IMG/VR virus record: IMGVR_UViG_3300044614_002074
Span: 1-23,129 of that record
Source of the DNA: a virus
Strand: one strand, 5' to 3'
DNA: 23,129 nucleotides
The translations under genes and the position numbers were made by a program. Of this stretch, positions 5,386-21,154 are shown one piece after another (the first letter of the stretch is position 1; the number at the start of each line of letters is the position of its first letter). The notes beneath the pieces were generated by a model. That model had not been told where the DNA came from and did no database searches. It worked only from the letters and a program-made list of their open reading frames with translations.

Positions 5386-7362
5386 TTAGCGGGTGAAGTG
5401 TGAGAGGCCAGAAAACAACCCGCCGCTGGCCCGGCTGCCGGAGCCGCCACCGGCACTGGCGAGGGGCAGCGCCGCCTCCGCCTGCGTGCCGCCCCCCAGG
5501 GATCGCTCCAGCTGATCCCACATCGTGCCGCGCGTGTAACGCCTCGCCATCACCTGCAGCGCGGCATAGGCCATCCGCGTGCAGTCGCCGCCCTCGTCGT
5601 GCTCACCCCGCGGCAGGGTCCATCGGTAGGTGGTCTGACCCCTGCTATCGCGCTGCGGCCGGCGCTTCCATGGGAACAGCTCCGCCAAAAACTGATCACT
5701 TGCCGCCTCGCCAAAGTGCAGGTACCTGGGGCCGGGCTGCTCCACCCGCAGGCGGTTCCTCAGCAGCGTCACACTCTCGTCATAATCCACAATGTAAATC
5801 TTTACCCCGCGCTTTATGAGCTGCCCCCGCCAATTGATGTCAACCATCGTGCCACGACTTACCAGCTCCTTCGCCTTGCTCCGGCCGTTGCCTTTCATCG
5901 GCGCCCACGTTGACGCCCTCGTGCGGCACCAGTTCCTCACCTCATGCGTCGACAGGCCGCCGTCGTCGATGCCGCCCAGCGCCATCCGCAGCACCCTCCC
6001 ATCCTCCCTCACCCATTGATGCGCCGCCAGCTCATCTAACTGATCCAGCGTTGCCGCTTGCTGCGGGTCGCCGTCAATCTCGAAATGGCCCAGATGCCAG
6101 GCTTCCTCACCATGGCCCCAGCCCCAGAAACTGACGACAAGTCGTTGATCCTCTGTCTCCCCGCCGCCCTGCACGTCCGCGCCAGCAGTCACCATCAACA
6201 CCCCATTCGGCACCGTGCCAGCCAGGTACCCATTGCCTGCTCCCGTGTCCTGACGACGCAACGAGAGGCCTTCTGCCGTCAGTTTTGATGTAATGCTGTC
6301 CTCCCACGGCACACCAAGATCTGTGTTGTGGAACGTCTGCATAGGGTCTGGGTTGCCCATCTTCAGTTGAGCCAGCGCGTTTGCATAGCGCTGCACAATC
6401 TCAGTCCATGCCGCATCACGGTGGTACGACGCCCCCACTCCTACCTGCTGCGAGCGCCACACCGGCATCCCATCGCGCAGAATCTGTCGACTGCGGTCCA
6501 GGCCCAGCGGACACGCCCAGCCCGCTTCATCATCCATCCGCCTTAGGTGGCGGTACTCAATCAGCTGGTCGCAGCCGATGCACTCGACCTTCCCCGCGTC
6601 AGGACCTTCCTTGATGAACCGATCCCACGCCAGCTGCTGATACGTCCTGCAATGCGGGCACGGATAATACCTGTACTGCTGATCTCCTTTCTTAAAGGAT
6701 TGATCCATGTAATCATTTGGCTCTACCGGTGTTCCGCCAATCGTGAAAAACGGATTATTGATAGTTCCCGCGCGCTTTAGAATGAGATCGATTGCGTCTC
6801 CTTCCTTGATTTTATCGAAAGCTGCTGGCTCCTCAATGCCGATCACGCCGCGCTCTACTCGCCGCATGCTTTTGGGAGTCGCTGCGTTTCTGATGTCAAT
6901 TAGTGCGCCGTTAGAAAGCTGCTTAAAATTATAGGTGTTTGCATGAGTCGTCTTTGACTTTCTGTTGCTAAGCAATCCACGCAAGCATGGCGCACCGTCG
7001 ACAGGATCAAAAAGAGGATCTATGTCTTCCCTGCTGTATTTCTTTACTTCATCATCCGTCGGCTGGACAAGCATTATTTTTGACGGCCGCCAGTGGCAGA
7101 AGAATTGAACGAATCCAATCTTTACAAATTCAGACCACCCCACACGAGCCGGCTTCTGGCACACCAAGCATTCAACCATCGGGTCTGTTACAGCCAAAAA
7201 CCAGTCACGTTGATACGGCCTTGTATGCCACTTGCCCCGGCTTTCAGCTCCGCCCGTCACGTATCCGTATTGCTCTGCATACTCAAGCCCTGTAATTCGC
7301 GGGCGAGGTTTTAGCTTTTCAGCTAAGCGGCGTGCAATCGCCCGGCGGCTCCGCTCAATCAT
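5386..7362 (-). CDS. Terminase large subunit, lambda gpA family
   Basis: A 658-residue packaging motor and cos-cleaving nuclease. The ATPase is N-terminal, with a gpA-type P-loop at 70-77 (KPARVGWS, like KSARVGYS in lambda) and an acidic Walker B at 173-178 (IGIEE). A zinc-ribbon-like pair, CPHC at 235-238 and CIGC at 261-264, follows. The nuclease begins near GADVQGG (Asp396). Length matches gpA (641). The frame is open to 7401, but an ATG at 7362 has GAGGAG seven bases upstream and gives an MIERSRRAIARRLAEKLKPR N-terminus, so it was chosen. It overlaps the small terminase end by eight bases. The GpA family implies cos packaging rather than headful packaging. Confidence 0.93.
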   Translation of the reverse strand: MIERSRRAIARRLAEKLKPRPRITGLEYAEQYGYVTGGAESRGKWHTRPYQRDWFLAVTDPMVECLVCQKPARVGWSEFVKIGFVQFFCHWRPSKIMLVQPTDDEVKKYSREDIDPLFDPVDGAPCLRGLLSNRKSKTTHANTYNFKQLSNGALIDIRNAATPKSMRRVERGVIGIEEPAAFDKIKEGDAIDLILKRAGTINNPFFTIGGTPVEPNDYMDQSFKKGDQQYRYYPCPHCRTYQQLAWDRFIKEGPDAGKVECIGCDQLIEYRHLRRMDDEAGWACPLGLDRSRQILRDGMPVWRSQQVGVGASYHRDAAWTEIVQRYANALAQLKMGNPDPMQTFHNTDLGVPWEDSITSKLTAEGLSLRRQDTGAGNGYLAGTVPNGVLMVTAGADVQGGGETEDQRLVVSFWGWGHGEEAWHLGHFEIDGDPQQAATLDQLDELAAHQWVREDGRVLRMALGGIDDGGLSTHEVRNWCRTRASTWAPMKGNGRSKAKELVSRGTMVDINWRGQLIKRGVKIYIVDYDESVTLLRNRLRVEQPGPRYLHFGEAASDQFLAELFPWKRRPQRDSRGQTTYRWTLPRGEHDEGGDCTRMAYAALQVMARRYTRGTMWDQLERSLGGGTQAEAALPLASAGGGSGSRASGGLFSGLSHFTR

Positions 7363-8335
7363 CCGGCAACTCCTCGAAGTCGTGATCGGCCACGGCCTCA
7401 AATATGTCCATCACTCGCTTCTCTATCGCTTCCATTTCTTTTAGCGTGAGGTGCGGAATGTCTAGCTTTATCTGTTTCGGCAGCGCTTCTGCTCTGCTCA
7501 TAATCTGCATGTTAACTGCATTCTGCGCAGCTTCTACATCTTCTCTGTAAACCAGCAACCCTTCTTCTCTCATCCTCGCCAGCGCCGTCAGTTTCCGTTT
7601 CTCGTGCTCGTGCTCACGCTTCTCATACTCCGCCCACGCACGCTCTTCCCCGATGTCCGGCGCCTCGTCGATCCCATACCGGAGCTCAGGCGGCCGAGCG
7701 GCGCCAGGCCCCGCCGGTGGGCGCCGCCGTTGCTTGGGTGGTGGAGCGGGAGATGGTGTGGGAGTAGGGGCGGCAGCAGGAGGCGGGGGAGCTGGAGCAG
7801 ATGGAGCAGCCGCGGCCGGCGGGGGGGGCGAGGGGAGGGCGGCGCCGGCATCAGGCGCCGGCTGGCCATGGGCCACAAGCACCTGGGGCGCCGGAGGCGC
7901 CGGGGGCGCAGCCTTCCGCCGAGCAGCGCGCGCTCCCCGGGTCGCTTGTTGAGAACGCTTCTCATTCTCAACAGCGGCAAGGGGGGCGGCGGGAGGGGCA
8001 AGGGGAGCAGGGGCCGGCGCGGCCGCAACCGCAGGCGCTGGCTCAGCCGGTGGCAGAGGCGGATCGGCGGGCGGATCGGCAGGGGCGGCCACCGGCACAG
8101 GCGGGGGCGCGGGCGGAGCTGGCGCCGCAGGAGGGGCAGGGGGCGCCTTCGGCACCTTCGCCTGAACCGTGACGATCGCCCGCCACACATTCTCGAGCCC
8201 ATCGCTCTCTACCAGGATCTGCCCGCGGTCGCCCGCCCAGCTGCGCAGCTCCCCGCTTCGCACTTTCCGGTGCAGCGTCGCGCGCGTTGACAGGCCCAGC
8301 TGTCGCTGTGCCTCCGTCAACGTGATTCGAGCCAT
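7355..8335 (-). CDS. Terminase small subunit, Nu1-like, with long Ala/Pro linker
   Basis: A 326-residue protein in three parts. Residues 1-55 form a winged-helix-like DNA-binding domain (MARITLTEAQRQLGLSTRA, RKVRSGELRSW), the part that binds cosB in lambda Nu1. Residues about 60-235 are almost entirely Ala and Pro. Residues about 236-326 are charged and helical (EERAWAEYEKREHEHEKRKL, MREEGLLVYREDVEAAQN) and match the C-terminal part of Nu1-type subunits, which contacts gpA. Lambda Nu1 is 181 residues, so the linker explains the excess. The start at 8335 gives the HTH N-terminus. An upstream ATG at 8395 would place the GTGAGACA repeats inside the gene and was not chosen. No clear Shine-Dalgarno is seen. 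Confidence 0.82.
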   Translation of the reverse strand: MARITLTEAQRQLGLSTRATLHRKVRSGELRSWAGDRGQILVESDGLENVWRAIVTVQAKVPKAPPAPPAAPAPPAPPPVPVAAPADPPADPPLPPAEPAPAVAAAPAPAPLAPPAAPLAAVENEKRSQQATRGARAARRKAAPPAPPAPQVLVAHGQPAPDAGAALPSPPPPAAAAPSAPAPPPPAAAPTPTPSPAPPPKQRRRPPAGPGAARPPELRYGIDEAPDIGEERAWAEYEKREHEHEKRKLTALARMREEGLLVYREDVEAAQNAVNMQIMSRAEALPKQIKLDIPHLTLKEMEAIEKRVMDIFEAVADHDFEELPDD

Positions 8336-8347
8336 GCAGGGCCAGAC

Positions 8348-8394
8348 TGTCTCACCGGAAAGCATCCTAGGCCGTGAGACAGCCCCGTGAGACA
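8348..8394. repeat. Three GTGAGACA octamers (candidate small-terminase binding sites)
   Basis: TGTCTCAC at 8348-8355 and GTGAGACA at 8374-8381 are perfect inverted copies 18 bases apart. A third copy, in direct orientation, begins 13 bases after the second (8387-8394). All three are flanked by a C or G on the CGGTGAGACAG pattern. The cluster starts 13 bases before the small terminase start codon. Confidence 0.6.
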
Positions 8395-8515
8395 CGGCCG
8401 AAACCCGCTGCTACGACTGGGCCGGGCCGCCCCTGCTGGTGAAACTTAAAGGCTGGTGAGGGGGCAGAGCGAGGGGGCGGCCGGCCGATGCCCCAGGCAA
8501 AGCCGTCTCACCTTA

Positions 8516-9878: not shown

Positions 9879-10208
9879 TCATGAGTGATACATGCCCAGC
9901 AGCTCCCGCAGCTGCCCCAGAGTCATCACAACGATCTGATCCTCAGGCGCGGTGGTGCGGGGGCGCTTGACCACCAGGGCATGCAGTGGCTTGCGGGCGT
10001 CCTGCTGCTGCTGGAGGGTTTCACGCAGCCACTCGCCGAGGCGCAATGTGCGGCAGTTCTTGCATTGAACCAGGCACGCACGGGTCCAAAGGTCGCCGCG
10101 GTCGATCGTGGCGCCGGCCGGAATGCGCTCGCAATCCAGGCGCTCCGCAAGGTACCGCTGTACCAGCAGCTCGAAAGCGCTGCCCTTGCGCTTGCTTGCA
10201 TTGGCCAT
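9879..10208 (-). CDS. PD-(D/E)XK-type endonuclease (Hjc-like)
   Basis: A 109-residue protein with the layout of small phage PD-(D/E)XK nucleases. It has a helix with an acidic residue (KRKGSAFELLVQRYLAERL), the catalytic segment AGATIDRGDL, and VQCKNCRTLRLGEWLRETLQQ, where QCK replaces the usual EVK/EXK. The C-terminus (HALVVKRPRTTAPEDQIVVMTLGQLRELL) closes the sheet. Candidate metal ligands are Glu of SAFE, Asp of RGDL and Lys of QCK; the Gln in place of Glu is a family variant or an inactivating change. Such enzymes cut branched or packaged DNA in phages. The ATG at 10208 overlaps an upstream stop by one base (TGATG). Confidence 0.72.
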   Translation of the reverse strand: MANASKRKGSAFELLVQRYLAERLDCERIPAGATIDRGDLWTRACLVQCKNCRTLRLGEWLRETLQQQQDARKPLHALVVKRPRTTAPEDQIVVMTLGQLRELLGMYHS

Positions 10209-10906
10209 CAGAGAGACGCGGCGAGATGTTCGAGAAGTGATTGCGGGCAGAGAGATACAGCGATCACCTCGCCGGCCAACGAATAAAGGGCATCCTGCGC
10301 GAAAGGTTCGAGGGTGATGGGGGGGGAGTAATTGGGGAGTGGGAGGGGCGGCACCCATTCGCGTCGCCACCACGCGACGGGCCGGCCATGGTGATGCACG
10401 AGGCAGGCCGCTTCGCGGGGATGGAGAGGCGCCGGGCGGGGCTGCCAGGGACCGAACGTGAACGGACAGGGGGTGATGGGTGCGCCGGGGCTGCGCGAGG
10501 GCGCGATTGGCACCGTGGGGACCGCCTGGATCGGCGGAGCTGCGGGGCGGGCGGGGGGCGCGGGCGTGCCGCGGATCAGTTCGAGCGCAGAGGCCACGGG
10601 GACGGCAGGAGGCGGCAACGACTGTAGCCGGTTGTAGTGCGTTGAGCGGCAGCAGCGAGGCGCCGGGCACCAGGTGAAGGGCCCCGAGGGAGCACCAGGC
10701 GGAGGGCTGCCGCTGCCCCGTGCCGCGCCTGCCGGCGCACCTGCCGTCGCACCTGCCGCCGAAGCGGGGGAGGTGCGGCACGCCATGCGCACGTTGCGAC
10801 AAAGGCTGGAAGCGGAGACCCCCGCCACCGCTTCGGCCCCGTACCAGGGGCGTACTACCGGGCGGTGGGGGGGGGGGGGAGTAGCGCACGTAGCGCAGCG
10901 GAGCAC
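10208..10906 (-). CDS. Unknown protein overlapping the nuclease start (true start unclear)
   Basis: This frame ends in TGATG, sharing one base with the nuclease start, which suggests translational coupling. The last 90 residues read as real protein (TFGPWQPRPAPLHPREAACLVHHHGRPVAWWRREWVPPLP, then ITLEPFAQDALYSLAGEVIAVSLCPQSLLEHLAASL). The first half is Ala/Pro/Gly-rich, includes a 12-base tandem repeat near 10728-10763, a C13 homopolymer (10867-10879) and two TAGCGCA iterons, so the true start is probably downstream of 10867. No family was recognised. A third, imperfect copy of the TGTAGT double repeat lies inside at 10623-10638. Coding status of the C-terminal part is moderately likely; the N-terminal limit is not supported. 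Confidence 0.4.
   Translation of the reverse strand: MLRCATCATPPPPHRPVVRPWYGAEAVAGVSASSLCRNVRMACRTSPASAAGATAGAPAGAARGSGSPPPGAPSGPFTWCPAPRCCRSTHYNRLQSLPPPAVPVASALELIRGTPAPPARPAAPPIQAVPTVPIAPSRSPGAPITPCPFTFGPWQPRPAPLHPREAACLVHHHGRPVAWWRREWVPPLPLPNYSPPITLEPFAQDALYSLAGEVIAVSLCPQSLLEHLAASL
10867..10879. repeat. Homopolymer run of 13 G
   Basis: Thirteen consecutive G on the plus strand, next to the first two TAGCGCA copies. In the minus frame it would encode PPPP near the N-terminus of the ORF ending at 10208. Runs of this length slip readily in replication and in sequencing, so its exact length is uncertain. Confidence 0.7.
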
Positions 10907-11233
10907 AGGGCCTGGCTACGAAAGAACCCAGTCAGGGACAGGGATCTGATGCGGTTTTAGCGCATAGCGCACCTATGGGGCAGGTGTGCGCATCCATGCC
11001 ACCAGAGGAGAACACTAGTACTAATATATATATAAAAAAGTATTTATCTATATAGGAGCGCGCTATTGCGCTACAACCGGCCCAGAAGCCTTGCAGCGCA
11101 GCGGGAGTCGAGTAGCGCACCATGCGCTACGCCAGTGCCGTGCGCCCCCCCCTACACCAGCTCAAACCGCAGTCACAGACAGGGTTTGTCCAGCGTGGAG
11201 CGCCGTAGCACAAGGTGCGCTACCGCTGCGCTA
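10882..11233. other. Iteron array with AT-rich block: candidate origin or control region
   Basis: TAGCGCA occurs at 10882-10888, 10891-10897, 10958-10964, 10965-10971 and 11113-11119, and its complement TGCGCTA at 11067-11073, 11123-11129, 11216-11222 and 11227-11233: nine copies in 352 bases, against about 0.04 expected by chance. Two copies form the perfect palindrome GTAGCGCA-CCA-TGCGCTAC at 11112-11130, and two abut directly at 10958-10971. A 45-base AT-rich block (11011-11055) lies in the middle. This is the design of iteron-based origins and also of multi-operator switches. It sits where leftward and rightward genes diverge. Most of the stretch 10,907-11,818 shows no convincing gene. 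Confidence 0.6.
11011..11055. promoter_or_regulatory. AT-rich block (unwinding element or divergent promoters)
   Basis: About 45 bases of mostly A and T, in a window that is otherwise strongly GC-rich. It includes TAGTACTA, an alternating TATATATATA run, an A6 run and TATTTATCTATATAGG. Several matches to a -10 hexamer are possible on both strands, so no single promoter is assigned. Confidence 0.6.
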
Positions 11234-11627
11234 CGGCTGTGCTGCGGCGTGCTGCGGCCCTGTGGCGGCCCTGTTGCTGGCGCCGTGGGTGGTGGCCGCC
11301 GTGACAGCGGGGGCCTGTTGCTGGTGCGCAGGGGGTGGTGGGGCTGAGAGTGGCGGGGCAGGATCGCCAGCCGCCTGGGGCGCGGCGGAGGGGCGCCCCA
11401 GGAGCTCGAGGAGCGCCATGGGCGCCCATGGATGGCTCAGCGGTGGCGGAGGGCGGCGCGGGGCGTTCCTGGCCCGCCGGAGGGCCCTGCTGCGGGGCCT
11501 GGCTGTTGCTGCTGGTGTGCCGGGCGTGAGGGCTGGCGGCGTGGCTGGTGATGGCGCTGGCGGGCTGCTGCGTGCTCCCTGGGTGACGCTGCTGCGCTCG
11601 AAGCGCTCGCGGTGCCCGGCGGCGGCC

Positions 11628-11671
11628 TGTGGAAAACCCTTGGTGCTGCCTGTGAAAAACCCTGTGGAAAA
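11628..11671. other. Three DnaA-box-like sites
   Basis: TGTGGAAAA occurs at 11628-11636 and 11663-11671, with the one-mismatch form TGTGAAAAA at 11651-11659. The complement TTTTCCACA is, as I recall it, the DnaA-box consensus of Synechococcus chromosomal origins. The two perfect sites also share flanks (CCTGTGGAAAACC). All three are in the same orientation. Confidence 0.55.
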
Positions 11672-11743
11672 CCACGAGACCGGCCGCCCCGGTTGCGTTC
11701 TCAAATGTGTATGACAGTGTGTTACGCGGCTGCTCGCTGCTGT

Positions 11744-11818: not shown

Positions 11819-12037
11819 ATGTCCGCCGCCATCCATCCGCTTTTTGCCCAGGAAAACGAACTTCGTGCCACCCTCAAGGCACAAAGAGACAACCCCCTGT
11901 ACTATGACGAGGAAAACGAGAAATACCCAGAGTTTATAGCTGGCGTGATTGAAATTGAAAACAAGATTAAAGCTCTTTGGGAGTCTGATGAATACCTTGA
12001 AGCCGCCACGCCATACGAAGAAAACGGCTGGATGTGA
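11819..12037 (+). CDS. Small acidic unknown protein
   Basis: A 72-residue acidic protein (LFAQENELRATLKAQRDNPLYYDEENEKYPEFIAGVIEIENKIKALWESDEYLEAATPYEENGW). It appears mostly helical, with a possible short coiled coil at IAGVIEIENKIKALW. The frame stays open upstream to 11612, but that part is Cys/Pro/His-rich shadow sequence. The ATG at 11819 directly follows the conserved leader element and was chosen. Base composition is clearly less GC-rich than the surroundings, as in the next two genes. No family recognised. First gene rightward of the control region, so it may be expressed early. Confidence 0.7.
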   Translation: MSAAIHPLFAQENELRATLKAQRDNPLYYDEENEKYPEFIAGVIEIENKIKALWESDEYLEAATPYEENGWM

Positions 12038-12050
12038 CATTCTCCAGCCC

Positions 12051-12069
12051 GCCGGGAGCTGATCCCGGC
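12051..12069. promoter_or_regulatory. Intergenic hairpin
   Basis: GCCGGGA (12051-12057) and TCCCGGC (12063-12069) pair perfectly around a five-base loop between two small genes. No T-run follows, so it is more likely an mRNA stability or processing structure than a terminator. Confidence 0.45.
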
Positions 12070-12091
12070 ATCATTCCACTGCAACACATCA

Positions 12092-12298
12092 ATGATTTGC
12101 ATTATCAAGCGTGACGCCTGCGACAAAATTGTGGGCTGGCTGATTGCCATGGACACTTACGATGCCCGCCGACAAGCTGAGTCTGCTGGCGACAGGGCGT
12201 TAGCTTCCGCCCTTTACCGGATGGATACTGTTTGTGTATCCCAGCTTGATTTAGCTATCCCCGGAATTTACCGGTACACGCTACTGCGTGACTCTTGA
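12092..12298 (+). CDS. Small unknown protein
   Basis: A 68-residue protein beginning MICIIKRDACDKIVGWLIAMDTYDARRQAESAGD and ending GIYRYTLLRDS. Alternating short beta and helical segments are plausible, and the IIKRDACDKIVGWL segment looks like a buried strand plus helix. It has no signal peptide and no cysteine motif. It begins 54 bases after the previous gene, following a hairpin at 12051-12069, without a Shine-Dalgarno. Base composition is like that of the gene before it. No family recognised; real coding is supported by ordinary amino-acid composition and the absence of a competing frame. Confidence 0.6.
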   Translation: MICIIKRDACDKIVGWLIAMDTYDARRQAESAGDRALASALYRMDTVCVSQLDLAIPGIYRYTLLRDS

Positions 12299-12331
12299 GC
12301 GGCACTTTACCCCCTCTATCCCGTTTTTCTC

Positions 12332-12709
12332 ATGCCCCGCCCCGTTACACTAAAGTTTCAAGTTCGCAATTGCGGCGAGAAGCAAATAACGATCACTCCG
12401 GCATGGACCGGCAAAGGTATTGCCATTCATAAGCCGATTGGTTTTCATGGCGAAACCAACGAGCCGTATTTCGAAGAAATTCAAGGGCTTTGGAATTTCA
12501 CCCACATCAACACTGGCATGGCCATGGGCAGCTGCATGGGCAGCCTGGATCGCGCCAAGGGCTTCGCCCGCGAGTGGGACGCCGAGTTCGCCGCCCTGCA
12601 GGATGGCGAGGCCATGGCTCCTGATCGGCTGCAGGCCTGGGCGACTGTGGTCCAGGAGATGAAGGCGGAGCCGCCGCGCAAGCCTCGCGCCACCCGGCGC
12701 AGGCGTTGA
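12332..12709 (+). CDS. Unknown protein with basic tail
   Basis: A 125-residue protein. The N-terminal 70 residues contain beta-type segments (VTLKFQVRNCGEKQITITPAW, GIAIHKPIG, EEIQGLWNFTHINTGMAMG), followed by a helical portion (SLDRAKGFAREWDAEFAAL, APDRLQAWATVVQEMKAE) and a strongly basic end (RKPRATRRRR) that could bind nucleic acid. GC content rises sharply from the first to the second half, suggesting a mosaic origin. The start follows a T-rich C/T leader without a Shine-Dalgarno. No family recognised. Confidence 0.65.
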   Translation: MPRPVTLKFQVRNCGEKQITITPAWTGKGIAIHKPIGFHGETNEPYFEEIQGLWNFTHINTGMAMGSCMGSLDRAKGFAREWDAEFAALQDGEAMAPDRLQAWATVVQEMKAEPPRKPRATRRRR

Positions 12710-12730
12710 CCATGGCCCGCCGAGGCCTGC

Positions 12731-12756
12731 CCGACCACCCTTCCCCACACATCCCC
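12731..12756 (+). promoter_or_regulatory. C-rich leader sharing sequence with the leader at 21515
   Basis: CCGACCACCCTTC followed by C-rich bases and ATCCCC just before the ATG matches the leader of the gene at 21543 almost base for base. It contains no purine-rich ribosome-binding site. Only a weak hairpin is visible upstream here. Confidence 0.4.
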
Positions 12757-13053
12757 ATGTCCCGTTCAGCACGTTCATCCATTACCCTCGTGGGCCGCGC
12801 CCACGGCATCGTTCTCGTCTCCGACCCCGTGCGGCTGAAGATCGCCATCCGCCGCCTACAGACCCTGGCCACCGACAACTACTGGCTGCAGGCCTCGCGG
12901 CCCGAGGTGCTGGAGCAGCTGCAGCATGTCACCGAAGGCCAGCTGATCGGCGTGATCTGCACCCTGCCCGCCGCCGCGGCACCAGCCGCAGCGCTCACCG
13001 TGACCAGGCTGGAGATCCTGGGCAAGGCCACCCCGCAGCAGGAGGTGGCGTGA
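12757..13053 (+). CDS. Unknown 98-residue protein
   Basis: The protein has a compact alpha/beta pattern: SITLVGRAHGIVLVSDPVRLKIAIRRLQTLATDNYWLQASRPEVLEQLQ, then EGQLIGVICTLP and LTVTRLEILGKA. The middle helices look globular and the C-terminal strands are clear. The frame is open to 12706, but the ATG at 12757 lies exactly behind the C-rich leader shared with another gene and was chosen. Its last codons (QQEVA) double as the Shine-Dalgarno GGAGGT for the next gene, which begins one base before this one ends. No family recognised. Confidence 0.65.
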   Translation: MSRSARSSITLVGRAHGIVLVSDPVRLKIAIRRLQTLATDNYWLQASRPEVLEQLQHVTEGQLIGVICTLPAAAAPAAALTVTRLEILGKATPQQEVA

Positions 13054-13331
13054 TGAGCACTGTCTTTGAGCGGCGCGGCATCAAGATCACCGCGAACGGT
13101 TGGCCTTGGCAGTTTGTTGACGATCACTGGGCCGCCCGCGTCGATGGAAGCGCAGGCGAGAAGTATGGATGGAACCCGCTATCAGTGAAGGGGATGAGTC
13201 GGTTTGGAGGTGGGTGGGCATTCAAGTTAGGCATAACGATCTCTTCAAGCTTCCGTAGTTGGGTGCTTGATCTCGGCATCGGTTCTATTCGGGTCTCGAT
13301 CAAGAAGCAGGAGGTGGCGAGATGGAACTGA
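13053..13331 (+). CDS. Unknown 92-residue protein
   Basis: The protein is aromatic-rich and beta-like (ERRGIKITANGWPWQFVDDHWAARVDG, MSRFGGGWAFKLGITISSSFRSWVLDLGIGSIRVSIKK). The start was set by a strong Shine-Dalgarno, GGAGGT at 13041-13046, six bases before the ATG at 13053; a GTG at 13050 is the alternative. Start and previous stop overlap by one base (TGATG). The gene ends in codons that carry the next gene's ribosome-binding site, the same 13-base GCAGGAGGTGGCG found before this gene. It overlaps the next gene by ten bases. No family recognised. Confidence 0.65.
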   Translation: MSTVFERRGIKITANGWPWQFVDDHWAARVDGSAGEKYGWNPLSVKGMSRFGGGWAFKLGITISSSFRSWVLDLGIGSIRVSIKKQEVARWN

Positions 13332-13624
13332 TCCACAAGAACACGCACGATTGGAGCCTCGGCCCGCGCTGGACGGTCAAACGCCACCCAGCAGGCACGA
13401 CTGATGCAAACCTCGTCTGGTTCGTCAAGCAAGGCCAGAAGCGGAAGCTGCTCGATCAAGTCGCCCGCTGGGACGGCAACGGCTGGGATCCCAAGCGTTG
13501 GGTGCCGAAATACCCGAAGGTGCCCCAGACTCTGCTGGCCATTGTCGAGGCCCACATGCGGCGGCGGGGCGATGAGCGGCCACACCATGCCGCGAGCTCT
13601 GCTCCGCCCGAAGTGGCGGGATAG
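13322..13624 (+). CDS. Unknown 100-residue basic protein
   Basis: The protein is basic and Trp-rich (MELIHKNTHDWSLGPRWTVKRHP, NLVWFVKQGQKRKLLDQVARWDGNGWDPKRWVPKYPKVPQTLLAIVEAH). The LVWFVKQGQKRKLLDQ segment looks like a strand plus helix, and the spacing of Lys/Arg suggests nucleic-acid contact. GGAGGT at 13310-13315 stands six bases before the ATG at 13322. The last 20 residues are polar and Ala/Pro-rich. It is the last gene of the rightward group, ending 46 bases before a strong terminator. Function unknown. Confidence 0.65.
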   Translation: MELIHKNTHDWSLGPRWTVKRHPAGTTDANLVWFVKQGQKRKLLDQVARWDGNGWDPKRWVPKYPKVPQTLLAIVEAHMRRRGDERPHHAASSAPPEVAG

Positions 13625-13670
13625 ACCAGGCCAGCGGGGCAGGGCCGCCCGGCCTTTCCCCTGCGAAGCG

Positions 13671-13702
13671 AAAGCCCCCGAGCCCTGCGGCCTGGGGGCT
13701 TT
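13671..13702 (+). terminator. Terminator of the small-gene group
   Basis: AAAGCCCCC (13671-13679) and GGGGGCTTT (13694-13702) form a nine-pair stem with a 14-base loop, followed by CCTGTGTG. The A-stem and T-stem ends make it usable in both directions. Confidence 0.75.
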
Positions 13703-13909: not shown

Positions 13910-16528
13910 TCAATCCCCCGGCGGGATCCATTCGACCGATTTCCCGACGGCCCGGACGGTGCCACAGCCAGGCGTGGCGGCCACCACCTCGAGCAACCAA
14001 CGGCGCACCTCCGCCGCTGGGCACTGGCGGGCCGGCAGGCACCAACTGCGGACGCATTTTTGAGGGACCGGCTGGCAGCCGTGCTGCTGGCGCCAAAGCT
14101 TGCCGCGATCGAGGAGGCGTTGGATCGCCCCGGCGGTGGAGTGGCGGACGGGGGCGAGCAATTTCTGGCGTTCGGTGGCGAACAGCGCGACGAGGGCGAT
14201 GGCATCGCGCAGGGTGGAGAGGGGAATGGGGATGGTGAGGGGGAGGCCTACGGCCGCCTGGCGGATGGCGTGGAGCACCAGCGCGATGCGCAACGTCTGG
14301 CCCCTTTGTTTGCTGAGATACTGCCGATCGGTGGCGTCGGTGGCGGCACGCCGCAACTCCTGCAGCCTGCGGATCCAACCCCGGAACGTGTCCAGGGCAT
14401 CATCCGCGAGGGGGACCACGGGCGGTCGGTTGGTGTCGCTGGTGCGTGGCGGCAGCTGCGCCGCCAGGGCGTCGATGGCGCGGTAAAGGTTGCCGAGCAC
14501 CGGGGCCAGGTCGGTGGTGCTGCTGATGTAGTCGTAATCCCAGTCTCCGAGGTCGTACCAGAAAAATCTGCTCCAGAGGCCATCAGCATCGGGGCAGCCA
14601 TTGTGGGCGTCTGCGTCGGCCTTCCACAAGCCTGCGAGCATGTCCGGCTGCAGGTTGCCGAACAGCGAAACTGCAGGATTGGGCACGAAAACGGAATCGC
14701 GGCCAACGCGATCGGTGATCAGCGCGGACCCGGCATAGAGGGCCAGCCATTTGGGGCGATCGGAGCGGTGAGCGGAGCGGGTGAGCTGCTGAAACCAACC
14801 GGTGAGCTCGTCGTGATAGCTGAGAAGGCCCGGACTGGCGCCAGCAGCCAGGATGATCTCCTTTTGCTCGATGGTTGAATCGGAGATCAGGAGGTGGCGT
14901 AGCTGCGGCTGCGGATTCACGGCCAGGTAATCGGCCACTGGATCCCCCCCTGCACCACCCGATTCGGACGCCATCGCCTTGGCGAGGCGTTGCGCCTCGG
15001 AGAGGCCTGTTTTCCAGCTGGTGACGGCCTCTGCGTGGCGCTGGTGTTCGCGCGCCTGCCATGGGGTGAGTGCACTTTCGACGCATGGCGCGGCGGTGGG
15101 GGTTTTGCCGGCGCCGGCCTCGGTCATGTTGATGCCCCAGATGATCGCGGGTTCTGTCCAGTTGTTGCCGGCCTCTGCTGCGACGCGCAGGCGGTTGCCG
15201 ATCATCGAGGCGGCAGTGCAGAGGATCGGCAGCAGGAACCCGCGAGGCGGCAGCTGCTGCTCTGTCGCGTAGCTGGAGACGGTGTTGGCGATGCCTGCGG
15301 GAAGGACGTTGGCGACGGTGGCCAGCTCGGCCGCGGCGGAGAGATCACGCAGATCGGCAATCGCTGCGGCGAGCTCGGCAGCGGCATCCTCGTCGTCGTC
15401 AGCGTCCCCGCCGGCGGGGGCCGCCTTGCCTGGGTAGTGGGGGGCGGGCAGATCGGCGGGAATGAACGGCTCGCCGTTGAGGGGCGGGCTGGGCGGCGTG
15501 GCCCTGGGCACGTCGTGCCTACTGACATCGACGCGGGCGGCCTTGCATTGGGCGATGAATGAGCCGGGGTCGAACTGCTCAAACGCCCAGCGCTCCACCC
15601 CCTCGAACGTATCGGCCGCCTGGGGGTGATAGCGGGAGGCCAGGGCAATGGCGTCCGCTTTGCCTTTGCCGATAAGCTCCAGGCAACGGGTGAGGCCGCA
15701 GACCAGGCGCAGCGCTTCATCCCGCTGGCCGTTGTTGGCGTGGATGGTCGGGTAGGCGGCCACGAGGCGCTCCAGCTCGGCGTAGGAGCGGGGCTCGTTG
15801 GCGCTGCTGGTGCGGGCGGGGGCAGCTGGGGGAGCAGCGGGCGGTGGCGGCGGCGGCAGCTGGGGGAGGCCCGCTTCAAATTCCTCGGCGGCGTAGATGG
15901 CGGCCGGGTTGGAGGAGATGAGCCGGGCCCTGTGGGGGCCGTACTGGCCGCCAAGGCTGGTGCCATCGGCGGCGGCGTCTTTGTCGCGGTAGATGTAGGA
16001 GCTGCCGGCGAGGCGCATGAGGCGCGACGGGTTTCGGCAGGTGGGGTCCGAATCGCAAAACCGGATGAGCCGGGCGGTGAGCGCCCGCCACCGGCCCGGG
16101 TCGATTGGTTCGCGCAGGCGCCAGTAGCAGTGAACTGATTTCCCGCCGGTGGCGAGCTGTGCGGTGGGTTCGGGCAGGCCGAGTGTCTGCCAGGCAGTGG
16201 TCTGCCAGGCGAGGTCTTGGTTGTCCCACTCGACGAACAGAAACTGGCAGGCGGCCACGTCGCTGTCGTTGGGCCCGCCGTTGGGGAGCCAGTAGAGGCG
16301 ATAGCCGCGGCGCTGGAGCTGCTCGAGCTGCTCGCGGCGATGGCCGAAGGTGGGCGCCAGATGAACGGCTCTCTCACCTGCTGGCTCGTGCTTTGAATCC
16401 CAGTGGATGGCGCGGTAGTGGCAGGCTGTGGGTGCGACCCCGAGGGCGGCCATGAACTGGCCGGCGGCTTCAACGTCGAAACGGGTTGCCGGCCCGATGT
16501 CGGTGACGGGTGCCGCCTGGAGGGTCAT
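13910..16528 (-). CDS. Primase-helicase: AEP-type primase fused to DUF3987 ATPase
   Basis: An 872-residue protein for phage DNA replication. Residues 35-215 look like an archaeo-eukaryotic primase domain, with an acidic motif near 97-103 (LFVEWDN), the sxH motif at 131-133 (KSVHCYWRL) and the LMRLAGSSY segment near 170. A Pro/Ala linker (223-245) precedes a helical middle part. Residues about 390-790 are DUF3987, a helicase-like ATPase with Walker A at 469-477 (TEAGAGKTP). Together they would prime and unwind at the phage origin. The start at 16528 follows a run of nine C and no Shine-Dalgarno. The gene diverges from the SF2 helicase across 78 bases. Confidence 0.82.
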   Translation of the reverse strand: MTLQAAPVTDIGPATRFDVEAAGQFMAALGVAPTACHYRAIHWDSKHEPAGERAVHLAPTFGHRREQLEQLQRRGYRLYWLPNGGPNDSDVAACQFLFVEWDNQDLAWQTTAWQTLGLPEPTAQLATGGKSVHCYWRLREPIDPGRWRALTARLIRFCDSDPTCRNPSRLMRLAGSSYIYRDKDAAADGTSLGGQYGPHRARLISSNPAAIYAAEEFEAGLPQLPPPPPPAAPPAAPARTSSANEPRSYAELERLVAAYPTIHANNGQRDEALRLVCGLTRCLELIGKGKADAIALASRYHPQAADTFEGVERWAFEQFDPGSFIAQCKAARVDVSRHDVPRATPPSPPLNGEPFIPADLPAPHYPGKAAPAGGDADDDEDAAAELAAAIADLRDLSAAAELATVANVLPAGIANTVSSYATEQQLPPRGFLLPILCTAASMIGNRLRVAAEAGNNWTEPAIIWGINMTEAGAGKTPTAAPCVESALTPWQAREHQRHAEAVTSWKTGLSEAQRLAKAMASESGGAGGDPVADYLAVNPQPQLRHLLISDSTIEQKEIILAAGASPGLLSYHDELTGWFQQLTRSAHRSDRPKWLALYAGSALITDRVGRDSVFVPNPAVSLFGNLQPDMLAGLWKADADAHNGCPDADGLWSRFFWYDLGDWDYDYISSTTDLAPVLGNLYRAIDALAAQLPPRTSDTNRPPVVPLADDALDTFRGWIRRLQELRRAATDATDRQYLSKQRGQTLRIALVLHAIRQAAVGLPLTIPIPLSTLRDAIALVALFATERQKLLAPVRHSTAGAIQRLLDRGKLWRQQHGCQPVPQKCVRSWCLPARQCPAAEVRRWLLEVVAATPGCGTVRAVGKSVEWIPPGD

Positions 16529-16606: not shown

Positions 16607-18226
16607 GTGTTCGAGCTGCGTCCGTACCAAACGGCCCTGGCGACGGCGGGCGATGAGGCGATGTTGCGCGGGCAGCGGCCCTGCCTGGTGGCGCCGACGG
16701 GTGCAGGCAAAACCGTGATCCTGGCGGAGCTGACGCGCCGGGCGCTGGCCCGTGGCGAGCAGGTGCTGGTGCTGTGCCATCGGGAGGAAATCCTGGGGCA
16801 GATCGTCGCCAGCTTGCGGCGCCACCTGGGCCCGTCGGTGGTGGTGGCGATGGCGATCGCTGGCAGCCGTCCGCGGATGGATCGGCGGGTGATCGTGGGC
16901 ATGGTGCCGACCCTCAACCACCGCCTGGCAGCGCTGGCAGCGCTGTCCGGCTGCACGGTGCTGGCGGACGAGTGTCATCACGCTCCCAGCCCCAGCTGGC
17001 GGCGGGTGATGACAGCCGCGGCCCCGGCACGCATGGCGGGGTTGACGGCCACACCGGTGCGACCCGACGGGAAGGGCCTGGGCGATGAAGGTGTGTTCGA
17101 TGTGCTGGTGAATGGGCCAGAGGCGGCGGAGCTGATGCGCGACGGGAAGTTGTGCCGCTACCGGCTGTTTGCGGCGCCGCATTGGATCAGCTCGAAAGGC
17201 GTCAAGAAGAGGGGAGGAGAGTTCGTTTCGGCGGAGGTCGAGGGGCGGGTGGTGGAGATCAATGGTTACATCGTGCGCGACTGGCTGGCTGTCAACCCGC
17301 AACGACTCCCCACCATCTGCGTGGCGGTGAGCGTGACCCATGCGCACAAGGTGGCGGAGCTCTACCGGGCGGCGGGCATCAGTGCCGAGGCAGTGGATGG
17401 GAAGACCGCGAAGGAGGAGCGGCGGCGGATCTTCGAGCGGTTCCGGCAGGGCCGGTTGACGGTGCTGGTGGCGTGCGCGGTGGTGGATGAGGGGCTGGAC
17501 GTACCGGAGGCGACGGTGCTCCAAGTGTTGCGGCTGATCGGCAGCCTGCGGCTGTGGCGGCAACTGATCGGCCGGGTGCTGCGGACTGCGGACGGGAAGT
17601 CGCACGCGATCATCCTTGACCATACGGATAACTGGCAGCGGCTGCCGCCGCCGGATGCCGACATGGATTGGCGGCTGAATGCAGAGCCACAGCAGCCCCG
17701 CAAGCGGCTGCGGGTGGTGATGGATGAGGAGACCGGAGAGGTGCGGACCGATGGTGAGCTGCCGCCGGTGGAGGTGGAGGAGAACGGAACGCGACTGGTG
17801 GAGATCTCATCAGCCGAGCTGGCGCGCGCGCATCCGATCGTGGCGCGGCGGCTGCTGAATGAGAGGTGTAGGGCGGAGATTGACGAATTAAACAGACATT
17901 ATGAAATGTATTACCAAAAGCGTCTCTATAATCGCCCTGATCGACCCAAGGACGATTTTTTCTATGCTTGCCGCGGAGACTATCCGAAAGATCCCCAAAA
18001 GGCGCTATGGGTCGTGGAGAGGACTTCTTATCTGAACGACAGACTACGTCGATGGTTTGATTGTTTGGATGTACTGGAGGATGAAACACTGCACCTGCTG
18101 GGCGCAGCGCCGTCGCTGCGGTTGCCGTCGGGCTGGGCTGAGGGTCAGATGATGGTCAGGATGCTGCTGAGCACTGAGCAACGACTGGCGGCCACGAAGC
18201 GGCTGCAGCGCTCGTGGATGGGCTAG
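16607..18226 (+). CDS. SF2 DNA/RNA helicase (RadD-like architecture)
   Basis: A 539-residue ATP-driven helicase. Motifs in order: RPYQ Q-motif (5-8), Walker A APTGAGKT (29-36, Lys35), LCHRE (56-60), DECH box (121-124), TATP (147-150), RPDGKGLGD (152-160), motif V VDEGLDVP (293-300) and motif VI QLIGRVLR (319-326). These are complete, so activity is expected; the layout resembles YejH/RadD-type phage helicases. GTG at 16607 is the start, with GAGG at 16599-16602. The C-terminal 150 residues are not part of the helicase core, and bases about 17878-18060 within them are much less GC-rich than their surroundings. First gene of the recombination operon. Confidence 0.9.
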   Translation: MFELRPYQTALATAGDEAMLRGQRPCLVAPTGAGKTVILAELTRRALARGEQVLVLCHREEILGQIVASLRRHLGPSVVVAMAIAGSRPRMDRRVIVGMVPTLNHRLAALAALSGCTVLADECHHAPSPSWRRVMTAAAPARMAGLTATPVRPDGKGLGDEGVFDVLVNGPEAAELMRDGKLCRYRLFAAPHWISSKGVKKRGGEFVSAEVEGRVVEINGYIVRDWLAVNPQRLPTICVAVSVTHAHKVAELYRAAGISAEAVDGKTAKEERRRIFERFRQGRLTVLVACAVVDEGLDVPEATVLQVLRLIGSLRLWRQLIGRVLRTADGKSHAIILDHTDNWQRLPPPDADMDWRLNAEPQQPRKRLRVVMDEETGEVRTDGELPPVEVEENGTRLVEISSAELARAHPIVARRLLNERCRAEIDELNRHYEMYYQKRLYNRPDRPKDDFFYACRGDYPKDPQKALWVVERTSYLNDRLRRWFDCLDVLEDETLHLLGAAPSLRLPSGWAEGQMMVRMLLSTEQRLAATKRLQRSWMG

Positions 18227-18257: not shown

Positions 18258-18482
18258 ATGGCATCGCGCAACAAGGCCAAGGCGTGCAAGTCGCTCAAGC
18301 CAAGTCTTGTTATTTCTTTGCGGCTGCCTGTGCAGACGCATGCGCGGCTGCGGGAACTGGCTGCAACAGAGCGGCGTTCAGTAAACTGGCTGATTTCCGA
18401 CATTTTGCGGGAGCAGTTGGCGCTACTGGATGCGCGCGGCAGGAAGTGTTCTGCCGCCCCACCCTTGACATCCGAACCCTGA
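18258..18482 (+). CDS. Ribbon-helix-helix transcriptional regulator (Arc/CopG type)
   Basis: A 74-residue protein. After a basic N-terminus (ASRNKAKACKSLKPS), LVISLRLPVQTHARLRELAATERRSVNWLISDILREQLAL gives the full RHH pattern: a strand with alternating residues (VISLRLP) that enters the DNA major groove, helix A (THARLRELAATE), the turn RRSVN, and helix B (WLISDILREQLAL). The protein should dimerise and bind tandem repeats. An exact 16-base repeat lies just upstream and again before the helicase-primase divergence, so it may control its own gene and the replication genes. No Shine-Dalgarno is visible; the leader is CCTCCCCG. Confidence 0.8.
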   Translation: MASRNKAKACKSLKPSLVISLRLPVQTHARLRELAATERRSVNWLISDILREQLALLDARGRKCSAAPPLTSEP

Positions 18483-18894: not shown

Positions 18895-19650
18895 ATGGCA
18901 ACAACTGCAGCAGCCGCCCAATCAGCGGCACTCGCTACCCAGGCGGCACCAGCGGCCGCGCCCGCAGCCGGGGGGCAGCATCAATGGCCCCTCCCACCGT
19001 CCTGCGGGCCAGACCCTGAGCGGCTCGCCGCTCTGGACAAGGCAATTTCTCTCGCAAGGCCTAATTTTGGGTCGTTGGCAAAAAACGAAACTGCCGACAT
19101 CAAGGGCAGGAAACATGGCTATTTGAATCTCCCTGGTCTTTATGAGGCCACGGTTTCCGCCCTGCTCACGCAGGGGGTGGTAGTGACTAACTCAATCGAC
19201 ATGGTTCAGGGCGGATTTTTAATTGTTACCACCCTCCACGACCTTAACAAAGGCGGTTGGCGTCAGAGCTCCTTTCCGATCGTAAACCTGTCGGGCGGCA
19301 GCAGCGCCATCGCCGCGGCGGCCACCACCGCCCCGAGGATCAACCTGCAGCTGTTGCTAGGCATCTGCGCGCAGGATGACGAGGTGGACGCGCCGGCGGC
19401 GGCGGTGGCGCCATGGAATGCGCCGGCGACTGCGGGCGGTAGCTGGGAGGCGCCAGCGGCCATGCAGGCCGCCCAGCCGGCTGCGCCTGGGCCTGCGATG
19501 CCATCGCCGATGCAGGGGCAGGGCCAGCAATGGACCCCCGCCGGCTACGCCCCCCAGGGCCAGCTCCAGGGCCAGCCGCAACCTCAGGGCCAGCCGGCTC
19601 CGCAGCAGCAACAGCCCCAACCCAACTCCAACCCTTACGCCAACTTCTGA
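18895..19650 (+). CDS. ERF-type single-strand annealing protein
   Basis: A 251-residue recombinase-type annealase. Residues about 55-165 follow the ERF pattern: LAKNETADIKGRKHGYLNLPGLYEATVSALLTQGVVVTN, FLIVTTLHDLNKGGWRQSSFPI, and AIAAAATTAPRINLQLLLGICAQDDEVD, corresponding to the usual ...YARRYAL..LLG...EDDD end of the domain. The first 40 and last 85 residues are low-complexity (Ala, then Gln/Pro/Gly) and end in NPYANF, possibly a protein-contact tip. ERF proteins pair complementary strands after an exonuclease has made single-stranded ends, and the exonuclease candidate is two genes downstream. Similarity is clear at the C-terminal ERF motif and moderate elsewhere. Confidence 0.8.
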   Translation: MATTAAAAQSAALATQAAPAAAPAAGGQHQWPLPPSCGPDPERLAALDKAISLARPNFGSLAKNETADIKGRKHGYLNLPGLYEATVSALLTQGVVVTNSIDMVQGGFLIVTTLHDLNKGGWRQSSFPIVNLSGGSSAIAAAATTAPRINLQLLLGICAQDDEVDAPAAAVAPWNAPATAGGSWEAPAAMQAAQPAAPGPAMPSPMQGQGQQWTPAGYAPQGQLQGQPQPQGQPAPQQQQPQPNSNPYANF

Positions 19651-20033: not shown

Positions 20034-20225
20034 GCAGGCGGCTATGCCCCCCAAGGCCAGCCACCCGCCGGCTACCCCCCTGCTGGCTATGCCCCTGCTG
20101 GCCAGCCCCCCGCCGGCTACAACCCGGGGCCCGCATACCCTGCAGCAGCACCCGCCGCTGCTCCACAACCGGCCGCCGCTCCGCCGCAGAGCGGCTGGGG
20201 GCAAACTGGCGGCTGGGGGCAGTGA
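19653..20225 (+). CDS. Small-domain protein with Q/P/G-rich tail (possible ssDNA-binding accessory)
   Basis: A 190-residue protein. The first 85 residues form one domain with two similar segments: CLWPAKASQNPQAPCLNGAVEIP and SVWRGTGENNGPVLNGQFESP, sharing W, N, P, LNG and E.P. This W-N-P-G spacing recalls DUF736-like small proteins. The remaining 100 residues are Gln/Pro/Gly/Ala/Tyr repeats (GYPPAGYAPAGQPPAGY) ending GWGQTGGWGQ, a tail arrangement like single-stranded DNA-binding proteins, although the acidic SSB tip is absent. It starts two bases after the annealase stop (TGATCATG) and overlaps the exonuclease start by one base. An SSB-like partner role is inference from context. Confidence 0.6.
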   Translation: MKSARVCLWPAKASQNPQAPCLNGAVEIPAQLVWELSQLMANGQGMEVNERTGEQFFRLRLSVWRGTGENNGPVLNGQFESPTERATYEASKAQQQGGGGWGAAAQPFGAAPQPQAQGQPQPQGQPAAGGYAPQGQPPAGYPPAGYAPAGQPPAGYNPGPAYPAAAPAAAPQPAAAPPQSGWGQTGGWGQ

Positions 20226-21154
20226 TGACCCCAGCCCTGGCCCTCCTGTCCCCGCAGGAGGGCCTTGCCTTTGATGAGCTCAGTCATCGGTACTGGGCCT
20301 GGTCTGCGTGTCGTGGCGAGTGGCTGCAACTGCCCAGCTGCTCGCAGGTGCTGTCCGAATCAGGCGTGAAGGCGTTCTCCTCGGCCAACTGGGAGCGATC
20401 CCTGATCAACAAGCAGGGCATGCGCCCCTACGAAGCCCGCCTCTACACCGAGCTCCACCGCGACGGCCGCGCCAGCATCGGAACCGAGCTCCACCGGCTC
20501 ATCCGTGCCGAGCTGCTGGGCGTGCCGGCGCCGCGGCCGGTCCATGCCGAGTCGTTGATGCTGCTGGCCACCTGGCGGCGTGAATTCCTGCCGCGGGTAG
20601 AGGTGGTGCTGGCCTGTGAACAGCCGATGTTCTCGAGGATGGGGTTCTACTCAGGAACACCCGACCTGGTTGCCAGGGTGGAGGGGCTGTGGCTGGTGAT
20701 CGACCCGAAATCGAAGGTGAGCCAGGAGAAGGCGAGGCCTTCGAGTTGGTGGCGGTACCAGCTGGCGGGCTACGACCTGCTGGTAGCCGAGAACTACGGC
20801 ATCGAGCTGGACGGCGCCGCCAACCTGATGATCTGGCCTGACGGGCTCGAAGAGGTTCATTGGACGGCTGCGGACATGGTGGCGGCGCGGTGTCGGTTCA
20901 TCGGCCACCTGGCGTGGTCGCATGCGGTGGCTGGCGCGGCCGGCAATGACGATCGAGCCAGGGCCCTGGGGCACCTGCTGACGGTGCGGCCTGATGCGCT
21001 GGAGCTGGCGCGACCACCCCGCGACTGTGGCGGGTGGACGGTGGCGGAGGCGTTGGGTGCCGGGCATTGGGCCGTGGCGGCGGCGGGGCCGCGTGATCCG
21101 CCCAATGCTGCTGCCTCCTCCCTGCCCTCTTCCCCTCCCCTCCTGCCCCCATGA
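20225..21154 (+). CDS. PD-(D/E)XK exonuclease, partner of the annealase
   Basis: A 309-residue nuclease. The N-terminus has FDELSHRYWAW and LPSCSQVLSESG, a signature start of phage RecB/Cas4-like PD-(D/E)XK enzymes. GTELHRLIRAELLG (86-99) supplies the conserved His, GTPD (144-147) the first Asp, VIDPKSK (159-163) the D-x-K, and WWRYQLAGYDLLVAE the following QxxxY helix. All catalytic positions are present. It would degrade duplex ends to create single strands for the ERF protein, as lambda Exo does for Beta. The start overlaps the upstream stop by one base (TGATG). The last 35 residues are Ala/Pro-rich and not conserved in style. Confidence 0.85.
   Translation: MTPALALLSPQEGLAFDELSHRYWAWSACRGEWLQLPSCSQVLSESGVKAFSSANWERSLINKQGMRPYEARLYTELHRDGRASIGTELHRLIRAELLGVPAPRPVHAESLMLLATWRREFLPRVEVVLACEQPMFSRMGFYSGTPDLVARVEGLWLVIDPKSKVSQEKARPSSWWRYQLAGYDLLVAENYGIELDGAANLMIWPDGLEEVHWTAADMVAARCRFIGHLAWSHAVAGAAGNDDRARALGHLLTVRPDALELARPPRDCGGWTVAEALGAGHWAVAAAGPRDPPNAAASSLPSSPPLLPP

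Follow-up and report, generated by a model that had tools for sequence, protein, structure and literature searches.

A probable iteron-type replication origin in the genome of an uncultured PrimPol-encoding siphophage

The word TAGCGCA occurs nine times in an uncultured viral genome record of 23,129 nt, and all nine exact copies lie within 352 nt (10882-11233). Such confinement raises the question of whether the locus is a start site of DNA replication or an assembly of operators for a phage regulator. The record analysed (IMG/VR IMGVR_UViG_3300044614_002074, taken whole and hereafter called the window) is linear and possibly a fragment. IMG/VR scans with its PrimPol, terminase and exonuclease led to a single contig in which this replication module recurs, IMGVR_UViG_3300042908_000860 (G001; 45,101 nt), referred to below as the relative. 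It is the sole contig found with the same block, a point that weighs against the interpretation proposed here. The joint occurrence of a repeat-word cluster, an AT-rich core and DnaA boxes in one non-coding stretch argues that this is probably where replication of the virus starts. We assign a probability of roughly 0.8 to the interpretation of the region from 10848 to ~11700 as the replication origin of a PrimPol-type siphophage of Synechococcus-type cyanobacteria, composed of iterons, an unwinding element and a DnaA-box array. An iteron origin with an unwinding element was one of two functions offered in the original prediction, and it has gained support from a conserved footprint in the relative, a genome-wide melting minimum, nearby DnaA boxes, an association with the PrimPol/helicase module across three records, and analogues in cultured phages.

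Architecture of the repeat cluster

Direct copies of TAGCGCA begin at 10882, 10891, 10958, 10965 and 11113, and inverted copies at 11067, 11123, 11216 and 11227, exactly as first described; seven of the nine extend to GTAGCGCA. A count over the entire record in both orientations agrees with the initial impression that no exact copy exists elsewhere in the window. Dinucleotide shuffling predicts a mean of 2.53 copies per 23 kb, equivalent to the ~0.04 per 352 nt originally quoted; the highest whole-record count among 100 shuffles was seven, and nine was reached in none. When 7-mers confined to a single cluster were sought in 60 order-3 Markov genomes, the maximum was four copies, versus nine here.

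The copies are arranged in two arms. The left arm contains four plus-strand copies, comprising the pair TAGCGCA-CG-TAGCGCA (10882-10897, +; each 6/7 identical in the relative) and the tandem TAGCGCATAGCGCA (10958-10971, +; 5/7 and 6/7 identical). The right arm begins with a minus-strand copy (11067-11073; 7/7 identical in the relative), continues with two 19-bp inverted repeats, and ends in an outermost minus-strand copy (11227-11233; again 7/7). The inverted repeat at 11112-11130 consists of two iterons in the form GTAGCGCA-CCA-TGCGCTAC, represented in the relative by GTAGCGCA-CCC-TGTGCTAC; this palindrome, like both left-arm pairs, had been recognized at the outset. Two further elements had escaped notice: a degenerate copy at 11093, and the second, imperfect inverted repeat at 11205-11223, GTAGCACA-AGG-TGCGCTAC, which joins one degenerate to one exact iteron and appears in the relative as GGAGCACA-AGG-TGCGCTAC. 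Arguing against an origin, the iterons are not helically phased in the manner of plasmid iterons, since they occur in mixed orientation at spacings of 7, 9, 10, 11 and more nucleotides.

Between the two arms lies the AT-rich core (~11015-11057; TACTAATATATATATAAAAAAGTATTTATCTATATAGG), the proposed DNA-unwinding element. The AT-rich block reported amid the repeats is real: no 40-mer in the record has a higher AT content, and the same is true of the corresponding segment in the relative. In both genomes it is also the 40-mer and the 60-mer of lowest stability (z=5.5 and 5.6 for the 40-mers), and 36 of 38 bases are identical between them. A pattern scan with the core returned the known relative as its only match.

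Two positional claims fared less well. The block had been placed at a point of divergence between leftward and rightward genes, which holds locally, with genes on the left reading leftward and the adjoining small ORFs on the right reading rightward; however, the large PrimPol gene (13910-16528) reads leftward toward the block, and the main strand switch is located at ~16.5 kb, with PrimPol on one side and the helicase on the other. The anticipated turning point in cumulative GC skew did not materialize, as neither genome has an extremum at the block (the minimum is at 7.7 kb in the window, not 11 kb, and at 25.1 kb in the relative). This result counts against an origin, and support for one consequently comes from the other lines of evidence. 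A second origin may also be present elsewhere, the record being linear and possibly incomplete.

Conservation of the block and its association with a replication module

The proposed core origin, the whole conserved non-coding block at 10848-11262, is 78% identical to G001:28107-28528, and this identity is unevenly distributed: it reaches 95% in the AT core and 90% over the iteron bases, versus 65% at the remaining positions, so that repeats and AT element are conserved above the DNA surrounding them. Substitutions in the block are spread over the three codon phases as 31/42/36, compared with 24/39/79 and 30/37/80 in PrimPol controls, which identifies the block as a non-coding footprint. The most improbable of the explanations we considered is that a small gene (63 aa on the minus strand, or 93 aa on the plus strand) carries these repeats by chance: tblastn does report 53-58% identity for both frames in the relative, but a coding reading of either ORF was rejected in view of the even phase distribution, a stop codon that interrupts the homologous 63-aa frame, and indels of 1 nt. 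By comparison, the segment upstream of RusA (10208-10600, -) is coding, with strong codon-phase bias and ~60% amino acid identity in the relative; its product matched no family.

Searches of phage and plasmid nucleotide sequences gave zero matches, as did Rfam, and no tRNA or tmRNA was found. The exact palindrome GTAGCGCANNNTGCGCTAC is present in four IMG/VR contigs; each has a lone palindrome without a cluster, and the number is about that estimated for chance, so the notion of a shared operator was dropped. Genes immediately to the right of the block have no counterpart at that position in the relative. The interval from the DnaA boxes to PrimPol (11830-13700) contains small ORFs of lower GC content that are likewise missing at that position, and one of them (12706-13053) has a homologue elsewhere in the relative (43.2-43.5 kb), indicating that genes move into this slot.

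A third record, G006 (60,332 nt), was found through a search with RusA, the gene to the left of the block. It has only RusA (82%) and a neighbouring 99-aa gene (68%) in common with the window; PrimPol, helicase, DnaA boxes and the TAGCGCA cluster are all absent. The block accordingly tracks the PrimPol/helicase module rather than RusA, as judged from three records. G006 instead displays a lambda-like arrangement, in which a 385-aa protein (576-1733) matching replication-initiation and O-like families is encoded by a gene that itself contains seven GTGGCACA/ATGTGCCAC repeats. The presence of this O-like gene in a RusA-sharing genome is an exchange of replication modules. Two outcomes had been named at the start as contrary to the interpretation of the repeats, namely a similar 7-mer density elsewhere and the loss of repeats from relatives retaining the replication genes; neither occurred.

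DnaA boxes, replication proteins and a proposed initiation pathway

Outside the coordinates originally considered, to the right of the iterons (by ~400 bp in the window and 250 bp in the relative), lies an array of putative DnaA boxes. The word TTTTCCACA, the cyanobacterial DnaA box consensus (PMC4674748), has exact copies in the window only at 11628-11636 and 11663-11671, with a single near-copy between them (TTTTTCACA, one mismatch; 11651-11659), all on the minus strand. Its only exact copies in the relative are at 28753, 28765, 28788 and 28800 (array 28753-28808), and 11648-11677 aligns with G001:28750-28779 at 93% identity. Neither record contains a DnaA gene, so that DnaA of the host would be used. 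That host was deduced from terminase, PrimPol and the endolysin of the relative, which together point to an uncultured virus of Synechococcus-type cyanobacteria. The terminase is 50% identical to that of S-LBS1; the endolysin is 54% identical to that of S-CBP2 over nearly its whole length and locally up to 62% identical to that of S-CBS1, and 105 of 105 records matching it are Synechococcus phages or cyanophages. Immediately preceding the large terminase, a 346-aa proline/alanine-rich ORF (7355-8395, -) with a weak N-terminal HTH_17 match is probably the small terminase subunit.

The replication genes lie to the right of the block. The PrimPol (13910-16528, -), a primase-polymerase with a DUF3987 helicase-like domain, matches the AEP domain of the S-2L PrimPol (PDB 6zp9, E=1.6e-30) and is 84% identical in the relative; in S-2L, PrimPol has been argued to be possibly the only polymerase (PMC8065100). 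A superfamily II helicase (16607-18226, +) co-occurs with the block and is the helicase absent from G006. It is followed on the same strand by a ribbon-helix-helix (RHH) DNA-binding protein of CopG/Arc-like type, conserved in both phages (18258-18482), an Erf-like single-strand annealing protein (18895-19650) and a PD-(D/E)XK exonuclease of the replication/recombination module (20204-21154). The PrimPol is a candidate origin-acting replicase and possibly binds the iterons itself; candidates for the binder would be its C-terminus or the RHH protein. The C-terminus is plausible in this role by analogy with P4 alpha and with pRN1 Rep (PMC4234260 for pRN1). An AlphaFold model of it has low confidence (pLDDT 46) and is insufficient to demonstrate a winged helix. 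Weighing against an origin, the record contains no match to the Rep_3 initiator family of iteron plasmids (PF01051) or to phage O (PF04492).

We infer from these sequence features both that the site fires as an origin and that DnaA binds at the array. A phage-encoded protein would bind the TAGCGCA half-sites and 19-bp inverted repeats that flank the AT-rich unwinding element, while host DnaA would occupy the TTTTCCACA array ~400 bp to the right. Together, the two proteins might melt the AT core, allowing PrimPol/helicase and the superfamily II helicase to load on the opened strands and prime synthesis.

Alternative functions and relation to known origins

The other function originally suggested for the repeats, that of a master switch, would make them operators of a phage regulator such as the RHH protein, acting on divergent promoters in the AT block. 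The 19-bp inverted repeats do resemble dimer operators, the RHH protein is conserved in both phages, and one marginal sigma-70-like match occurs on the minus strand inside the AT block. We nevertheless consider a switch unlikely. Neither record contains an integrase (PF00589) or an HTH_3 repressor (PF01381), which makes operators of a lysogeny switch improbable, although the records may be fragments; TAGCGCA is found at no other promoter, conservation in the relative does not extend to the genes just right of the block, and the block is missing from G006 despite retention of RusA. Regulation would also leave unexplained the DnaA boxes and the coincidence of the AT core with the genome-wide melting minimum. 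With that one promoter match and no lysogeny genes, the proposal found no positive support. A role in partition or packaging instead of replication is very unlikely for a similar reason, as it accounts for neither DnaA boxes nor AT core. Clustered inverted and direct repeats do occur in parS-type sites; however, ParA was not found among the proteins scanned, the ParB-like match of the relative adjoins a DNA methyltransferase ~3 kb from the block, and the terminase genes are 3-6 kb away.

Two further proposals are variants of an origin. In many iteron replicons the iterons also control the replication genes, and such autoregulation, which overlaps with our preferred explanation and would refine it, is possible if somewhat doubtful here. 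Direct half-sites are mixed with inverted repeats, which iteron plasmids divide between origin and operator functions, and the promoter-like match is compatible with it; on the other hand, the nearest replication gene, PrimPol, has its end rather than its start near the block. There is also a slim chance that the two right-hand inverted repeats pair as a long hairpin for PrimPol, the iterons being simply stem sequence. This resembles pRN1, for which a stem-loop origin was proposed that is likewise 3' of the prim-pol gene (PMC4234260), and in each phage the folds do pair the two palindromes with each other (z=-1.9 and -2.0). Two palindromes would yield such stability by construction, however; the left arm folds poorly in the relative (z=0.1), and left iterons and AT core would go unexplained.

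Taken as an iteron origin with an unwinding element and DnaA boxes, the locus is of a known kind. With the origins of P1 (oriR), F, pSC101 and RK2 it has in common clustered initiator-binding repeats, an AT-rich unwinding element and DnaA boxes at the edge; it differs from them in repeats of only 7-8 bp, which lack helical phasing and occur in either orientation to the left and right of the core, in having a PrimPol as replicase and in encoding no Rep_3-type initiator. The O-protein iterons of the phage lambda ori are similarly 19-bp inverted-repeat units adjoining an AT-rich region, whereas the block described here is outside an initiator gene, has no O protein and is accompanied by DnaA boxes. 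The alpha protein of satellite phage P4 is a primase-helicase that binds its own iterons. P4 thus resembles the present system in its single primase-helicase protein and its short repeats in both orientations, a likeness without sequence match, and the iteron-binding domain here is only a candidate; P4 is not known to require DnaA. The pRN1 prim-pol replicon also has its origin 3' of an AEP primase/helicase gene and includes a small DNA-binding copy-control protein, but features a 100-nt stem-loop, iterons and DnaA boxes not being described for it (PMC4234260). Within the searchable literature, no tailed phage appears to have been described that combines a PrimPol replicase and mirror-image iterons with DnaA boxes of the cyanobacterial type. 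Searching text for "iteron" together with "cyanophage" gave no paper on such an origin, judging by titles and abstracts; the terms "origin of replication" and "iteron" are absent from the S-LBS1 paper.

Four cultured cyanophages (S-LBS1, S-H1, S-CBS1 and S-2L) have types of replication gene (PrimPol, primase or helicase) in common with the window, and in the first three a repeat cluster is located at or adjoining a primase/helicase-type gene. Their repeat words are different, no origin is annotated in their records, and no TTTTCCACA boxes were found in any of the four. The strong case is S-LBS1 (MG271909), in which 15 of 15 copies of TGCCYAACC fall in the last 400 bp (34242-34619), directly after the PrimPol gene, with 11 exact copies of AGGTTAGG versus at most four in Markov genomes; this segment is probably an unannotated origin. 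It also contains a long direct duplication, which might be a terminal-overlap artefact. In S-H1 (MK105819 reversed), CCKAACGG repeats at 12605-12884, mostly in opposite orientation, flank the melting minimum, and the neighbouring AZB50552, annotated as hypothetical, is a DNA primase (phrog_35358, E=2e-141). In S-CBS1, the gene for gp41, an AAA ATPase that also shows a match to a winged helix, encloses GTGCGAAAC repeats and, at the same place, the melting minimum by both 40- and 60-mer. The S-H1 and S-CBS1 clusters, of four copies, are each within Markov expectation, weak when taken alone, and count against the origin reading; repeats in the region downstream in S-2L are weak and form no significant cluster by the Markov test.

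We tentatively raise the idea, with somewhat less than even confidence, of an undescribed and recurrent class of cyanosiphophage origin, in which lineage-specific short iterons surround a melting core at or near a PrimPol, primase or helicase gene. In some lineages host DnaA boxes would be added, so that the phage would recruit the initiator of the host chromosome despite encoding a primase-polymerase, and the origin-replicase module would be exchanged whole against lambda-O-like modules. A compact origin in such a phage is relevant to how phages whose sole polymerase may be a PrimPol start replication and to whether they need host DnaA, and it would permit origin-based shuttle plasmids. DnaA boxes together with iterons would also provide a signature for locating origins in uncultured phage contigs. 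In a survey of 46 scored viral contigs with paired DnaA boxes, the window and the relative included, 15 had a nearby 8-mer cluster exceeding all other sampled windows of the same contig. DnaA-box arrays near lineage-specific repeat clusters were seen in contigs L060, L063, L069, L073, L087, L093, L095 and L100, examples among these uncultured contigs being eight copies of CGTTCCA in ~212 bp and eight of ATAACGAA in 384 bp.
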